In this document: positions 6,941 to 63,288 of the stretch, one piece after another
How the letters are laid out: the number at the start of each line of letters is the position of its first letter
How positions within the stretch are numbered: position 1 is the first letter of the stretch
DNA from: Bacillota bacterium
GTDB taxonomy: Bacteria; Bacillota; Clostridia; Lachnospirales; CAG-274
NCBI GenBank assembly: GCA_017543265.1
Contig: JAFYGI010000028.1
Span: 1-64,000 of the forward strand
Direction: 5' to 3'
DNA: 64,000 nt
The notes under the pieces: generated by a model
Databases searched by the model: none
Told to the model about the DNA's origin: nothing
The model's input: the letters and a program-made list of their open reading frames with translations, nothing else
Position numbers and translations under genes: made by a program

Positions 6941-6969
6941 ATTGTAACTCAAAACACAAATAATATCAA
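6941..6969 (-). promoter_or_regulatory. Promoter of the GT2-gtrA-yfhO operon
   Basis: Minus-strand -35 TTGATA (6964-6969), 17-bp spacer, -10 TACAAT (6941-6946), about 40 bp upstream of the GT2 start. Good match to the housekeeping consensus. Confidence 0.7.
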
Positions 6970-6980
6970 TAAGAATTTAC

Positions 6981-55226: not shown

Positions 55227-55255
55227 TTGACAAATTTCGCGGGTGGTGTTACAAT
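55227..55255 (+). promoter_or_regulatory. Promoter of the pyrimidine operon
   Basis: TTGACA (55227-55232), 17-bp spacer, TACAAT (55250-55255). The predicted start near 55262 puts a leader peptide, a U-rich tract and a terminator before pyrB. Confidence 0.85.
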
Positions 55256-55289
55256 TATACGGATATGAAAATAAAAGGAGGAAATCACG

Positions 55290-55397
55290 ATGTGTATGCC
55301 ATATATCGACAGCGTAAATTTACATTTATCCCCGTTTTATTTTCGTTTTATTATTATTTTTATTGATAATATAAAGACAATGAAAAGATTTATTTGA
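55290..55397 (+). CDS. Candidate leader peptide of the pyr operon (pyrL-like)
   Basis: A 35-codon open frame with a strong AAAAGGAGG site 8 bp ahead of its ATG. The peptide is hydrophobic and rich in Phe, Tyr and Ile in its middle (SPFYFRFIIIFID). Those codons are U-rich: 23 of 32 bases at 55334-55365 are T. Its stop codon (55395-55397) falls in the loop of the terminator that precedes pyrB. A translating ribosome would therefore cover the 5' arm of that stem. This matches the layout of enterobacterial pyrBI leaders; the sequence itself is not similar. The peptide probably has no role beyond being translated. Confidence 0.7.
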   Translation: MCMPYIDSVNLHLSPFYFRFIIIFIDNIKTMKRFI

Positions 55398-55420
55398 TTT
55401 TTCTTTTTATTGTCTTTTTT
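55374..55420 (+). terminator. Attenuator (intrinsic terminator) before pyrB
   Basis: 14-bp stem AAGACAATGAAAAG (55374-55387) with CTTTTTATTGTCTT (55403-55416), one G-U pair and a 15-nt loop, running into TTTTTT at 55415-55420. It lies 39 bp before pyrB and after the promoter, so it must be passed for operon expression. The 5' arm lies inside the leader peptide frame. Confidence 0.85.
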
Positions 55421-55458
55421 GTTGCCTTTCGGACGAATAACAATAAGGGGGAATATAA

Positions 55459-56385: not shown

Positions 56386-57672
56386 ATGAAAACACTTATC
56401 AAAAACGGCCGTGTTATCGACCCGTATAACAATATAGACAAGGTACTCGACATACTTGTTGAGGACGGCAAAATCTCAAAGGTAGAGGAAAATATCTCCG
56501 ACAATGCGGACAAGACCATAGATGCAAAGGGTTGCTGGGTAACACCCGGTTTTATCGACCTGCACGTTCATCTGCGCGACCCGGGCTACGAGCATAAGGA
56601 GACTATCGCAACGGGTACCCGCGCGGGCGCAATGGGCGGTTTTACCACTATCTGCGCTATGCCCAACACCAACCCCGTTACCGACAACGAAATTCTTGTG
56701 GAATATGTTAAAATGAAAGCCGAGCGTGACGGCGTTATAAATGTACTGCCTATCGGTGCGATAACGAAGGGGCAGCACGGCGAGGAGCTTGCGGATATAG
56801 GCAAAATGGCACAGGTGGGTGCCTGCGCTATCTCCGAGGACGGCAAAAGCGTACCGGGACCCTCACTTATGAAAAATGCTTTAAGATATGCAAAAATGTT
56901 CGACCTGCCCGTTTTTGACCACTGCGAGGAGATAAGCCTTGCCAAGGGCAGCATGAACGCGGGCGACAGGGCAAGTCTTTTGGGTCTTAAGGGCATATCC
57001 AACGACAGCGAGGAGCTTATAGTTGCAAGGGATATGATACTTGCGGGCAGCGTTAAGGCACAGATACACCTTTGCCATATAAGCACAACGGAAAGCATCA
57101 TACAAATACGACAGGCAAGGGAGCGCGGCGTAAATGTTACCGCCGAGGCAACGCCCCACCACTTCACCCTCTGTGACGAGGATATAACCGAGTATGATGC
57201 CAATTTTAAAATGAATCCCCCGTTAAGGAGCAAAAAGGATGTGGAGGCTGTCAGACAGGCCTTAAAGGACGGCACGATAGATGTTATCGCCACCGACCAC
57301 GCTCCGCACCATATCGACGATAAAAACTGCGAGTTTGAAAAGGCCGCAAACGGCATTATAGGCCTTGAAACGGCACTTCCGCTGGGTATAAAGATACTTG
57401 TGGAGGGCGGCTACCTTACCCCGAGCGAGCTTATTGCAAAAATGACCTGCAACCCCGCCAAAATACTTCACAGCGATAAGGGTACATTAAGTGTTGGCGC
57501 CGCTGCGGACATCACCATAACAGACCCCGAATGCGAAAACATCTTTGATGTAAGCAAAATGGCAAGCAAGGCAAAAAATACACCCTTTGGCGGCTATAAG
57601 GCAAAAGGCAAGGTGCTTTACACCATAGTAGGCGGCGAGATAGTTGTCGAGGATGGAAAGCTTGTGAAATAA
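56386..57672 (+). CDS. pyrC: Dihydroorotase
   Basis: Closes carbamoyl aspartate to dihydroorotate. A 428-aa class I zinc dihydroorotase. Metal ligands are in IDLHVHLRDPGYEHKE (HxH), and in the later CHISTTES and ATDHAPHH segments. The carboxylated-lysine position of some class I enzymes is taken by Asp (FDHCEE region). AGGAG lies before the start inside the end of pyrB. Confidence 0.97.
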   Translation: MKTLIKNGRVIDPYNNIDKVLDILVEDGKISKVEENISDNADKTIDAKGCWVTPGFIDLHVHLRDPGYEHKETIATGTRAGAMGGFTTICAMPNTNPVTDNEILVEYVKMKAERDGVINVLPIGAITKGQHGEELADIGKMAQVGACAISEDGKSVPGPSLMKNALRYAKMFDLPVFDHCEEISLAKGSMNAGDRASLLGLKGISNDSEELIVARDMILAGSVKAQIHLCHISTTESIIQIRQARERGVNVTAEATPHHFTLCDEDITEYDANFKMNPPLRSKKDVEAVRQALKDGTIDVIATDHAPHHIDDKNCEFEKAANGIIGLETALPLGIKILVEGGYLTPSELIAKMTCNPAKILHSDKGTLSVGAAADITITDPECENIFDVSKMASKAKNTPFGGYKAKGKVLYTIVGGEIVVEDGKLVK

Positions 57673-57673
57673 A

Positions 57674-58039
57674 ATGCAGTTACAAAAATTACCCTACTCA
57701 CTTACCGTCTGCAAGGTGCAGAGCACATCCCGGCTTGACCTTACGAAAGATTTTTACTTTATTGCAAAAACCGACGAGGAGATCTCCCTTGTCTGCAAGG
57801 CGGAGGACACACCGAAAGACACCGTCGAAAGAAGTGACGGCTGGAAAGCTTTTCGCATACAGGGCGTTTTGGATTTTTCGCTTATCGGTATTTTGTCCAA
57901 GCTGACGGGCATACTTGCGGATAATAAAATAGGTATTTTCGCGGTTTCCACATTTAATACCGACTATATACTTGTAAAAGCAGAAAACTTTGATAAAGCC
58001 GCGGAGGTTTTGTCAAATAAGGGCTATGTGATAATATAA
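57674..58039 (+). CDS. ACT-domain protein (ACT_7/CASTOR-like) in the pyr operon
   Basis: A 121-aa protein with two ACT-like halves. The N-terminal half opens LPYSLTVCKVQSTSRLDL and the C-terminal half is an ACT_7-type unit (IQGVLDFSLIGILSKLTGIL, then AVSTFNTDYILVKAENFDKA). Such proteins bind amino acids or other small ligands and regulate enzymes. It begins 1 bp after pyrC with no ribosome site, so its translation is coupled to pyrC. It ends 20 bp before pyrF. Small ACT_7 proteins are common but have no assigned role. Its place among pyrimidine genes suggests, but does not show, ligand control of an enzyme made here. Confidence 0.8.
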   Translation: MQLQKLPYSLTVCKVQSTSRLDLTKDFYFIAKTDEEISLVCKAEDTPKDTVERSDGWKAFRIQGVLDFSLIGILSKLTGILADNKIGIFAVSTFNTDYILVKAENFDKAAEVLSNKGYVII

Positions 58040-58059: not shown

Positions 58060-58992
58060 ATGCTTATCATTGACAAACTTATCAAAAAAATCAACGAAAC
58101 GGGCAATCCTACGGTCGTAGGTCTTGACCCACGTTTAAACTACATTCCCGAATACATTACAAAAAAATATTACGACAAGTACGGCTATACGCCCAAGGCT
58201 GCGGCAAAGGCCATGCTTAAATTCAACAAAAAGATAATTGACAATGTATGCGACATCGTGCCTGCGGTAAAGCCCCAGATAGCCATGTATGAGCGCTACG
58301 GCATTGACGGTCTCAAGGCCTACATCAAAACCTGCGAATATGCGGCGGAAAAGGGACTTATCGTTATAGGCGATATAAAGCGCAGCGATATTTCCTCAAC
58401 TGCGGAGGCTTATTCGGATGCGCACCTTGGCAAATGCCGCGTGGGCGAGAATGAGTTTTCCTGCTTTACACACGATTTTGTCACCGTAAACGCATATCTC
58501 GGCTCGGACGGCATAACACCGTTTCTTGACGACTGCCGCGCTTACGAAAAGGGCATATTCGTCCTTGCAAAAACATCAAACCCCCACAGCGGCGAAATTC
58601 AGGATCTTCTTGTGGACGGCACACCCATATACGAAAAAATGGGTGCTCTTATAGAAAAATGGGGCGAGGAATTTGTGGGCGAATACGGCTTTTCAAGCGT
58701 GGGCGCTGTTGTCGGAGCAACACACCCCCAGCAGGCAAAGCGTCTGCGTGATGTAATGCCCCACACCTTCTTCCTTGTACCGGGCTACGGCGCACAGGGC
58801 GGCAAGGCCGAGGACTTGGCCGTTTGCTTTGACAAAAACGGCATTGGCGCGATAGTCAATTCCTCCCGCGGTATCATTGCCGCACATACAAAAGACCAAT
58901 ACAAGGACTGCTTCACGGACGACAGGGACTTTGCCCTTGCCGCAAGACAGGCCTGTATAGATATGAAAAACGATTTAAGGAGATGTATATGA
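58060..58992 (+). CDS. pyrF: Orotidine 5'-phosphate decarboxylase, long (type 2) form
   Basis: Decarboxylates OMP to UMP. 310 aa, the longer type 2 subfamily. The opening GNPTVVGLDPRLNYIPEYI, the catalytic Asp-Lys set in GDIKRSDISSTAEAYSDAHL, and VVGATHPQQ are characteristic. AAAGGAGG precedes the start. It overlaps carA by 4 bp. Confidence 0.96.
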   Translation: MLIIDKLIKKINETGNPTVVGLDPRLNYIPEYITKKYYDKYGYTPKAAAKAMLKFNKKIIDNVCDIVPAVKPQIAMYERYGIDGLKAYIKTCEYAAEKGLIVIGDIKRSDISSTAEAYSDAHLGKCRVGENEFSCFTHDFVTVNAYLGSDGITPFLDDCRAYEKGIFVLAKTSNPHSGEIQDLLVDGTPIYEKMGALIEKWGEEFVGEYGFSSVGAVVGATHPQQAKRLRDVMPHTFFLVPGYGAQGGKAEDLAVCFDKNGIGAIVNSSRGIIAAHTKDQYKDCFTDDRDFALAARQACIDMKNDLRRCI

Positions 58993-60080
58993 TGGAAAAA
59001 ACAGTAAAGGCCATGCTGATACTGGAAAACGGTGCCCGCTTCAAGGGCAGTGCCTTCGGCTGCATCAAGGAGACCGTGGGCGAGGTCGTTTTCACAACGG
59101 GTATGACGGGCTATCAGGAGACCCTCACCGACCCGTCCTTTGCGGGACAGATAGTCACAATGACCTACCCGCTTATCGGCAACTACGGCATAAATCTGGA
59201 GGATATGGAAAGCAAAAGGCCGTATCTTAAGGGTTTTATCGTCAGGGAAAAATGCGATGTACCCAACAACTGGCGCTGTGAAATGGAGCTTGACGGCTTT
59301 TTAAAGCAGCACAGGATAATGGGTCTGGAGGGGATAGACACCCGCGCCCTTACCCGTGTTTTAAGGGATAACGGCACCATGCGCGGCATTATCACCACCC
59401 GCTTTGAGGACCTTACCGAAAGCCAGATAAAGCAGAAATTCGACACCTACACAAATAAATTTGCCGTAAAGGAGACCACCTGCGAGGCACCCTACACCAT
59501 AAACGGCAGCGGTACCCACCTCGCGGTGCTGGACTGCGGCATCAAGCAGGGCATCTTGCGCGACCTTAATAAGCGCGGCTGTAAACTGAGTGTTTTCCCC
59601 GCCTACACCTCGGCGGAGGACATACTTGCCGTTAAGCCGGATGCGGTCTTCCTCGGCAACGGCCCCGGCGACCCGCAGGACATCCCCGAAATTACCGCGG
59701 AGGTAAAAAAGCTTATCGACAGCGGCATACCCGTCCTTGGTATCTGCCTTGGACACCAGCTTATAAGCCTTGCCCTGGGGTGCAATACAAAGCGTCTTAA
59801 ATTCGGCCACCACGGCGGCAATCACCCCGTAAGGGACGTACAGACGGGACGTGTGTACATCACAAGCCAGAACCATAACTTTGTTGTCTGCGACCTTACG
59901 GACGAGGTGGAGCCCTCCTTTGTAAACGTAAACGACGGCAGTATCGAGGGCATACGCCACAAGACAAAGCCCATATATTCCGTGCAGTTCCACCCCGAGG
60001 CAAGCCCCGGACCGCTGGACACACAGGTCTTGTTTGACAAATTTCTGAAAATTATCGAGGAGGCGAAGAAAAATGCCTAA
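58989..60080 (+). CDS. carA: Carbamoyl-phosphate synthase small (glutaminase) subunit
   Basis: Releases ammonia from glutamine for carbamoyl phosphate synthesis. A 363-aa protein. The N-terminal CarA domain has [20 protein letters not shown]. The class I amidotransferase triad is in [16 protein letters not shown] (Cys) and [11 protein letters not shown] (His/Glu). The start at 58989 (ATG overlapping the pyrF TGA) is set by AAGGAG 6 bp ahead; the ATG at 58983 is too close to that site. It overlaps carB by 8 bp. Its product serves both arginine and pyrimidine synthesis, both encoded here. Confidence 0.97.
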
Positions 60081-63000
60081 GGACAATTCCATAAAAAAGG
60101 TGCTTGTTATTGGCTCGGGCCCCATAGTTATCGGTCAGGCGGCGGAGTTTGACTACTCGGGCACACAGGCCTGCGAATCCATAAAGGAGGAGGGCGTGGA
60201 GGTCGTACTGGTAAACTCCAACCCCGCTACCATAATGACGGATATAGGCATGGCACACTACACCTATATCGAGCCTCTTACAATAGATTTTCTTGAAAAG
60301 GTCATCCAAAAGGAACGCCCCGACAGCATAATTGCGGGCATGGGCGGTCAGACAGGCCTTAATTTAAGCTGTGAGCTTTACGATGCGGGCATACTTGACA
60401 AGTACAACGTGCGTGTTATCGGTACATCTATAGAGTCCATAAAAGAGGGCGAGGACCGCGACAGCTTCAAGCAGCTTATGGAGCGCACCAATCAGCCCAT
60501 AGTTGACAGCGACATCGTGACGGACGTGGACAGCGCCGTGGAGTTTGCCGATGCCATCGGCTACCCCGTTATCGTGCGCCCCGCCTACACTCTCGGCGGC
60601 ACGGGCGGCGGTATTGCCGAAAACGAGGACGAGTTAAGGGAGATATGCTCCCAGGGTCTGCACCTTTCCCGTGTCGGTCAGGTGCTTATCGAAAAAAGCA
60701 TAAAGGGCTGGAAGGAGATAGAGTTTGAGGTCATGCGCGACGGCGCAGGCAACTGTATCACCGTCTGCTCCATGGAAAACGTGGATCCCGTGGGCGTGCA
60801 TACGGGCGACAGTATCGTTGTTGCACCCGCGCAGACCCTTTCCGACAGGGAATATCAGATGCTGCGAAGTGCCGCTATAAATATCATCAACTCTATCGAG
60901 ATAAAGGGCGGCTGCAATGTGCAGTTTGCGCTTGACCCCAACAGCTACAACTACGCCGTTATCGAGATAAACCCCCGTGTCAGCCGTTCCTCCGCCCTTG
61001 CATCCAAGGCAACGGGCTACCCCATTGCAAAGGTGGGCGCGAAGATCGCACTGGGCTACAACCTTGACGAGATAAAAAATGCGGTCACGGGCAAGACCTT
61101 TGCCTGCTTTGAGCCCGCTATAGACTATGTTGTTTTAAAATTCCCCCGCTGGCCGTTTGACAAGTTCTTCTCCGCAAAAAGGACGCTTGGTACAAAGATG
61201 ATGGCAACGGGCGAGATAATGAGTATCGGCAAAAGCTTTGAAGCCGCACTTTTAAAGGGCGTGCGTTCGCTGGAGATAGGCCAGTACGGGCTTGAAAGAA
61301 AATCCAGCAAGACCCGCACCCTCGAGGAGCTTAAAAAGCGTGTACAGGTTCCCGACGACGAGCGTCTTTTCGACCTTGCGGAAATGCTGCGCCGTAACTA
61401 CCGCGTGGAAAAGGTGTGCCAGATAACGGGCATGGACCTTTTCTTTATCCACAAGATAAAAAGCATTGTCGATATGGAGGAGGAGCTAAAGCAGATGTCG
61501 CTTGACGACTTTAATGCCGACAACCTGCGCTTTTTCAAGGAAAAGGGCTTCTCGGACAAGGCCATTTCAAACTTTGTGGGCTGCACTCCCCCCGACATCT
61601 ATGCTTTAAGGCAAAAATTTAACATTATGCCCGTATTTAAAATGGTAGATACCTGTGCGGGCGAGTTTGAGGCCGTGACACCCTACTACTACTCCAGCTA
61701 CGACAGCGAGGACGAGGTCATCGTATCAAACCGCAAAAAGGTCATGGTCATCGGCTCGGGTCCCATCCGTATCGGTCAGGGCATCGAGTTTGACTACTGC
61801 TCCGTTCACTCCATAAAGGCGCTTAAAAAGGCGGGTATGGAGACAATAATCGTAAACAACAACCCCGAGACAGTCTCCACGGACTTTGACACGGCGGACA
61901 AGCTGTACTTTGAGCCCCTGACGGAGGAGGATGTTTTAAACGTTGTGGAGCGTGAGCGTCCCGACGGCGTTATCTTACAGTTTGGCGGTCAGACGGCCAT
62001 TAAGCTGGCAAAATTCTTTGACGAGATGAATATCCCCATCTACGGCACCAAGCCCGAGCAGATAGATGCCGCAGAGGACAGGGAAAAATTTGACGAGATA
62101 CTTGAAAAGCTGCATATCAGCCGTCCCAAGGGCAAGGGCGTATGGAGCGTTGAAGAGGGCTGTGATGTGGCCGAGGCTCTGGGCTTCCCCGTACTGGTGC
62201 GCCCCAGCTACGTTCTGGGCGGTCAGGGCATGGAGATAACCTACAACCGCGAGCAGCTTATAAAATACCTGCGTGAGGCCTTTGAAAAGGACAGCAAAAA
62301 CCCCGTGCTTATCGACCGCTACCTTGCGGGACGTGAGATAGAGGTAGACGCTATCTGCGACGGTGTTGACGTGTATATCCCCGGCATTATGGAGCATCTG
62401 GAGCGTGCGGGCGTGCATTCGGGCGACAGTATATCCATCTACCCGCCCCAGCACCTTACGGACGACATCAAGCACCGCATAATGGATGTCACCAAGAAAA
62501 TATCCGTCGAATTAAAGGTAATAGGCATGATAAACATACAGTTTATCGAGTATAAGGGCGAGCTGAATATTATCGAGGTAAACCCCCGCTCGTCAAGAAC
62601 CGTGCCCTACATCACAAAGGTCACGGGCGTACCCGTTATCGACATCGCCACAAGGGTCATGCTGGGTGAAAGACTTGCGGACATGGGCTACGGCACGGGT
62701 ATCTGCGATATACCCAAGGTCGTTGCTGTCAAGGTGCCCGTATTCTCCACCGAAAAGCTTCCCCAGGTGGAGGCCAGCCTCGGCCCCGAGATGCGCTCCA
62801 CGGGTGAGGTGCTCGGCGTTGGCTATAACCTTGAAAACGCGCTTTACAAGGGCTTTATCGCTGCGGGCATGACCGTGCCCAAGGCAGGCAGCACCATTGT
62901 TGCCACCGTAAGAAGTCAGGATCACGAAAAGTTTATCGACATAGCCAAACGCTTTGAAAACATGGGCTGCCGCTTTATCGCCACCAGCGGTACGGCAAGG

Positions 63001-63288
63001 GCGCTGAAAGAACACGGCCTGGAGGTAAAGCCCGTTAAAAAGATAAGCGAGGGCGTGCCCAATATCGTGGATACTATCCGAAGCGGCGTTGTGGACCTTA
63101 TCGTGGATATTCCCAAAAAGGCCAATAATGCACACTCCGACGGCTTTAAGATAAGACGTACCGCAGTCGAGTCCAGCGTTACGCTGATTACCAGCCTCGA
63201 TACACTTAACGCTATGGCCGATGTTATGGAAAAGAATATAGATAGAAAATCCCTTGATCTGTTTGATATAAATAGGGATTTGAGGTGA
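60073..63288 (+). CDS. carB: Carbamoyl-phosphate synthase large subunit
   Basis: Makes carbamoyl phosphate from bicarbonate, ammonia and two ATP. 1,071 aa, complete. Two homologous halves are visible: [20 protein letters not shown] at the start and [20 protein letters not shown] near residue 557. Each has its own ATP-grasp domain, with [12 protein letters not shown] in the first and [11 protein letters not shown] in the second. The C-terminal ~130 residues form the allosteric MGS domain ([15 protein letters not shown]). It follows carA and ends the operon; a hairpin-rich repeat begins 5 bp after its stop. Confidence 0.98.

Follow-up and report, generated by a model that had tools for sequence, protein, structure and literature searches.

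A probable protein-free attenuator ahead of pyrB in Clostridia without PyrR, with a U-rich tract that appears to mask the leader ribosome site

The pyrB leader and its operon

The window analysed here, i.e., the whole stretch of 64,000 nt, carries a pyrimidine operon in which a short leader is followed by the genes pyrB-pyrC-ACT-pyrF-carA-carB. The host lineages of this locus and its relatives are gut clostridia. The features are as follows, in window coordinates.

55227-55255, + strand: sigma-70-type promoter, TTGACA-17-TACAAT, with TG before the -10 (11/12 consensus matches)
55265-55282, + strand: 5' arm of the helix that masks the leader ribosome-binding site (RBS), pairing with 55329-55346 (nascent-RNA fold; cognate-versus-swapped test)
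55276-55281, + strand: Shine-Dalgarno sequence of the leader, AGGAGG, within that 5' arm
55290-55397, + strand: leader frame MCMPYIDSVNLHLSPFYFRFIIIFIDNIKTMKRFI, 35 codons, ATG at 55290 (frame open to the stem in relatives)
55329-55346, + strand: putative anti-RBS; lies within the leader frame and supplies the pyrimidine-rich 3' arm of the helix
55347-55365, + strand: U-rich run just 3' of the anti-RBS, proposed as a UTP-sensitive slow stretch for RNA polymerase
55373-55420, + strand: intrinsic terminator; stem 55373-55388/55402-55417, loop 55389-55401, T run 55415-55420 (fold, covariation)
55395-55397, + strand: leader stop TGA, in the terminator loop
55459-56385, + strand: pyrB, aspartate carbamoyltransferase
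56386-57672, + strand: pyrC, dihydroorotase
57674-58039, + strand: ACT-domain protein
58060-58992, + strand: pyrF, orotidine-5'-phosphate decarboxylase
58983-60080, + strand: carA-like, which we take to be the carbamoyl-phosphate synthase small subunit (reading of the open reading frame, and synteny)
60073-63288, + strand: carB-like, which we likewise take to be the large subunit (reading of the open reading frame)

Most of what an earlier note had drawn at this site was borne out. The consensus promoter is present, and a promoter of the sigma-70 type is retained in nearly all relatives; the 35-codon frame does have a strong ribosome site before its ATG; the leader stop does lie in the terminator loop; and the count of 23 T in 32 bases at 55334-55365, the tract as it was drawn there, is exact. 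The terminator stem and its T run were also confirmed, but the stem had been given as 14 bp and is in fact 16 pairs long (13 plus three A-U pairs with the T run; -16.1 kcal/mol), and it lies 42 nt ahead of pyrB. Besides this tract and the T-rich part of the terminator (32-base windows starting at 55387-55399), comparably T- or A-rich 32-base windows occur in the 64 kb only at 6968-6971, and within the pyr coding region such windows never exceed 18.

Elsewhere in the same genome, pyrE was considered as a second site for this leader and rejected, as it has a separate promoter and lacks a leader, and a uracil permease of the ncs2 family was not found in this genome. A second pyrB-pyrC-like pair (L082, 5458-6390 and 6326-7666 of G000:C63) lies directly after a topoisomerase gene; it has neither leader nor terminator, and its pyrB paralogue scores above the family cut-off.

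The leader in relatives with and without PyrR

A PyrR family search of the whole genome returned no pyrR gene over the cut-off of 138 bits; its sole match, a hypoxanthine phosphoribosyltransferase-like gene adjacent to tilS, scored 33 bits. The PyrR loop (RF00515) had no match in the window, in the leader even with the threshold relaxed, or in the genome (G000). The earlier note had seen neither a PyrR site nor the gene; both are absent genome-wide, and the gene is over the cut-off in none of the 48 genomes of the family, the window's own included. Across the order, 40 of 146 genomes carry PyrR over the cut-off. It is also missing from the genomes of the other PyrR-less loci described below, including that of a Defluviitaleaceae bacterium (L027).

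In the pyrB tree, f1 and f17, both of them PyrR-less, cluster (84/98) among PyrR-bearing lineages, while L027 and f4, a possible further lineage of PyrR loss which has no leader, are placed apart from them; because f1 and f17 form one group and the other two stand elsewhere, two or three losses of PyrR are indicated. Many PyrR-less genomes were also seen in families f5, f6, f9, f16 and f19 (L092-L096, L100, L112-L139), which have another pyrB type, and no leader or attenuator is visible ahead of that type in these families.

The scan of pyrB relatives gave 28 further readable leaders and, with the window, a set of 29, in which L027 is the most distant (65% pyrB identity); L020 and L024 went unscored (no leader beside pyrB in a short contig; an assembly gap). 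Five leaders of the second family, f17 (L123-L126, L129), bring the PyrR-less leaders to 34, from two families and one Defluviitaleaceae. All 29 loci of the first set keep frame 0 open as far as the stem, compared with 12 and 8 for frames 1 and 2 respectively; by dinucleotide shuffling, the joint chance of such open frames in 11 dissimilar leaders is 2.6e-7. The design in f17 is the same as in the window, with the leader frame open to the stem in all five leaders and the other frames in 0 and 1. The sequences of the leader peptides are not conserved among these relatives.

An open frame up to the stem is the informative fact here. The stop lies between -21 and +77 nt from the stem start across all leaders, a position which is not independent evidence, as the terminator arm and loop carry stops in several frames, and these partly account for a stop in the loop. 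An intrinsic terminator in E. coli is repressed by a ribosome whose stop codon is no more than ~27 nt away, and full termination is regained only beyond ~27-30 nt (PMC4824070), so that all leader stops fall within the zone of terminator repression.

The terminator is under selection as a stem: 8 of its 16 pairs have changed on both sides in relatives, and its covariation score of 0.302, against 0.171 for shuffles, was exceeded by 0/500 shuffles and by no slid control. The T fraction of the PyrR-less leaders is highest 8-32 nt before this stem. Comparison with relatives had been proposed in the earlier note as a check, and frame, U-tract and stem all proved to be conserved; no PyrR loop was found in the leader, and there was no loss of the frame where the terminator is kept. 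Insertions of ~150-400 bases, some of them inverted-repeat-like, were observed between terminator and pyrB in L018, L020, L026 and L029, and another between promoter and leader in L004.

Upstream of the same pyrB type, PyrR-bearing families (f2, f7, f8, f21, f22 and f24) display the other state of this leader. In 17 of 20 leaders (L103, L108, L141, L170, L172-L175, L177, L178, L181-L186, L188; the exceptions are L176, L179 and L180) the PyrR loop adjoins the Shine-Dalgarno sequence of a leader frame that enters or crosses the terminator. More distant PyrR-bearing clostridia (L031, L033, L034, L035) have the same arrangement of loop and leader frame; the leader of L033 has only six codons (MYENCA), and its loop attains the Rfam cut-off. 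All 20 PyrR-bearing leaders scored, a set which leaves out L176, L179 and L180, have the frame open up to the stem; the other frames are open in 2 and 2. Since the loop adjoins the leader Shine-Dalgarno sequence, PyrR in these sister families may act by preventing translation of the leader instead of via a classical antiterminator. A PyrR loop beside a leader frame that enters a terminator was reportedly proposed in the 1990s for the pyr genes of Thermus strain ZO5.

Pairing of the U-rich tract with the leader ribosome site

Segment 55329-55346 pairs with 55265-55282 over 17 bp, with two single-base bulges. The resulting helix covers the leader Shine-Dalgarno sequence, and once the polymerase has moved beyond 55350 it is the fold of lowest energy for the nascent RNA. 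Complementarity to Shine-Dalgarno sequences is a generic property of pyrimidine-rich tracts. To separate pairing from mere purine-pyrimidine complementarity, the RBS of each leader was scored against its own tract and against those of the other leaders. Cognate pairing was stronger (mean -15.6 kcal/mol, against -13.2 for swapped pairs; z = -5.2), with p = 1.4e-4 for 11 leaders below 65% identity, p = 1e-4 for 15 dissimilar leaders including f17 (6e-4 without the long leader L025) and p = 0.024 in f17 alone (n = 5). Generic complementarity explains part of the pairing strength but not this cognate excess. Control positions in the first codons, in the promoter region and after the terminator yielded no cognate excess.

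Once the tract is added, opening the leader Shine-Dalgarno sequence costs 9.2 instead of 2.8 kcal/mol in f1, and 9.1 instead of 2.1 kcal/mol in f17, while shuffled tracts give 5.9 and 5.4 kcal/mol respectively. The fit is not universal, as L014 has no masking and L007, L015 and L030 mask only weakly. The anti-RBS lies a median of 20 nt before the stem.

PyrR-bearing leaders differ on each of these measures. They have no cognate excess between RBS and tract (z = 0.03), their opening cost barely moves with the tract (2.2 to 3.3 kcal/mol), and the 40 nt that precede their stem are 42% T, whereas the two PyrR-less families have 57% and 55% (p = 1e-7); some PyrR-bearing leaders (f24) nevertheless have U-rich stretches there too. 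Leader RBS and tract have co-evolved where PyrR is gone, and masking by the tract stands in place of the PyrR loop. On these comparisons, the U-rich tract appears to serve as the anti-RBS of the leader in PyrR-less lineages.

Two other partners for the tract were considered and rejected. Pairing with the pyrB Shine-Dalgarno sequence is present in the minimum-energy fold of the full-length leader, but cognate pairs had no advantage over swapped ones (p = 0.17 to 0.26), and for a role as anti-terminator against the 5' arm of the terminator, cognate pairing was weaker than swapped.

A proposed UTP switch and its alternatives

We consider it probable that this is a protein-free, translation-dependent pyrB attenuator whose U-rich tract acts as sensor and, at the same time, as a lid over the leader ribosome site. 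The ancestral output of the operon would be leader translation running into the terminator. Where PyrR is present, it would control leader translation through the loop beside the RBS; in PyrR-less lineages a U-rich tract, transcribed 50-80 nt after the RBS, would cover that site instead. By default, tract 55329-55346 would emerge from the polymerase and fold onto RBS 55265-55282, no ribosome would load, the terminator would form, and transcription would end. At low UTP, the polymerase would linger in 55347-55365 with the anti-RBS still in its exit channel, leaving the RBS open and giving a ribosome time to load on the leader. This ribosome would trail the polymerase over the 35 codons to the stop in the terminator loop, where its presence would prevent the stem from closing, and pyrBCF-carAB would be transcribed. 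In this scheme the leader is presumed to be translated in vivo, the polymerase to pause and UTP to set the pause, and of the readings considered we infer that sensing of UTP by such a race fits best.

It appears that PyrR was lost and that the U-rich anti-RBS, probably a direct gauge of UTP, took its place. The fuller claim, in which the speed of making the lid decides leader translation, and in which this switch displaced PyrR from an ancestral leader-terminator module common to both states, once in the ancestor of the two families and apparently again in a Defluviitaleaceae lineage, seems to us about evenly balanced. Exchange of the sensing system over the same genes is known in principle, and leader-peptide systems are rare in Firmicutes (PMC2965389). 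In many low-GC Gram-positives transcription outruns translation (PMC13323073), so the pause would have to be effective.

The closest known system is pyrBI of E. coli and other enterobacteria, where the pyrL leader frame also enters an intrinsic terminator before pyrB, has a U-rich stretch in the frame before the stem, and stops at or beyond that stem. Read-through at E. coli pyrL needs tight coupling of transcription and translation (PMC5021804). The window leader has no match to PyrBI_leader (Pfam), which the E. coli PyrL control matches at 3e-34, and it lies in another phylum, nested in a clade that uses PyrR; as judged from these comparisons, the clostridial leader would work like pyrBI but is not its homologue. 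Slippage at the start site, as at initiation of E. coli pyrBI, was dismissed for the window because there is no U run at the likely start. The shared order of parts would also allow the plain E. coli mechanism, i.e., a race between an already elongating ribosome and a polymerase stalled in the U-tract, with the complementarity of RBS and tract incidental or serving only to lower basal leader translation. We regard this as unlikely: the complementarity is specific to the RBS and co-evolves only in PyrR-less lineages, whereas in E. coli pyrBI it is no better than chance (79% of shuffles are as good). The earlier note's proposal of a pyrBI-style attenuator stands as regards attenuation by leader translation, but not as a mere copy of E. 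coli pyrBI, as the tract is also an apparent anti-RBS.

A trans-acting factor, either a protein substituting for PyrR or a small RNA, might instead target the RBS-tract helix, report the pyrimidine level and so control leader translation. The masked RBS does occupy the site of the PyrR loop in PyrR-bearing relatives, but the helix has no sequence motif conserved among relatives, unlike that loop, and the operon has no conserved extra gene; among the relatives examined the ACT-domain gene is present only in the window and L028, and was ruled out as a replacement regulator on that ground. We think such a factor improbable. Still less credit is due to the reading that there is no pyrimidine regulation at all, with frame and terminator merely tuning basal expression and masking limiting leader translation: leaders with terminators can be tuning devices, but the sister families have the same module under a PyrR loop, and U enrichment and RBS masking occur where PyrR is gone. 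Amino-acid attenuation through the Phe, Ile and Tyr codons abundant in the leader is scarcely credible, as their abundance follows from U-richness, the unconserved peptides have no codon run in common, and the tract has no anti-terminator-like pairing excess to the 5' arm of the terminator.

With a protein-free UTP switch as the preferred reading, the likeness to PyrR-loop attenuators of the Bacillus type (RF00515) is limited to a pyrimidine operon, a leader and an intrinsic terminator, and the window's genome differs in having neither pyrR gene nor loop. The PyrR-bearing relatives come nearer, with the same output and the same pyrB type; their sensor is the loop at the RBS, while here it would be self-masking of RBS and tract together with the U-run. 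Because the module of leader and terminator is also present in these relatives, the novelty lies in the sensor: what is added is the RBS-masking tract, and the output resembles that of E. coli pyrBI. No description of such a leader was found in the open literature, which is weak evidence of novelty given that the main reviews were outside this coverage.

If this reading is true, a bacterium can drop an RNA-binding regulator and keep the genetic output, with the message itself as the sensor, and sister lineages preserve the states before and after the exchange of sensor. It would also place a translation-coupled attenuator in bacteria whose polymerase is often thought to outrun the ribosomes (PMC13323073), and provide a specific system in which coupling in low-GC Gram-positives could be examined.

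Some further features of the leaders were also observed. Leader peptides of PyrR-bearing relatives (L103, L141, L172, L181-L183, L185, L186 and others) have a common start like MRDI(G/S)AFF, encoded by GA(C/T)AT(C/T)(G/A)GTGCGTT(C/T)TTTTAT, and GISAFFF is retained in the f17 leaders and in L025. Furthermore, in f24 (L172, L182, L183, L186) a hairpin, GGTAGA ... TCTACC, which resembles a pause hairpin, lies 5' of the U-rich stretch before the terminator.
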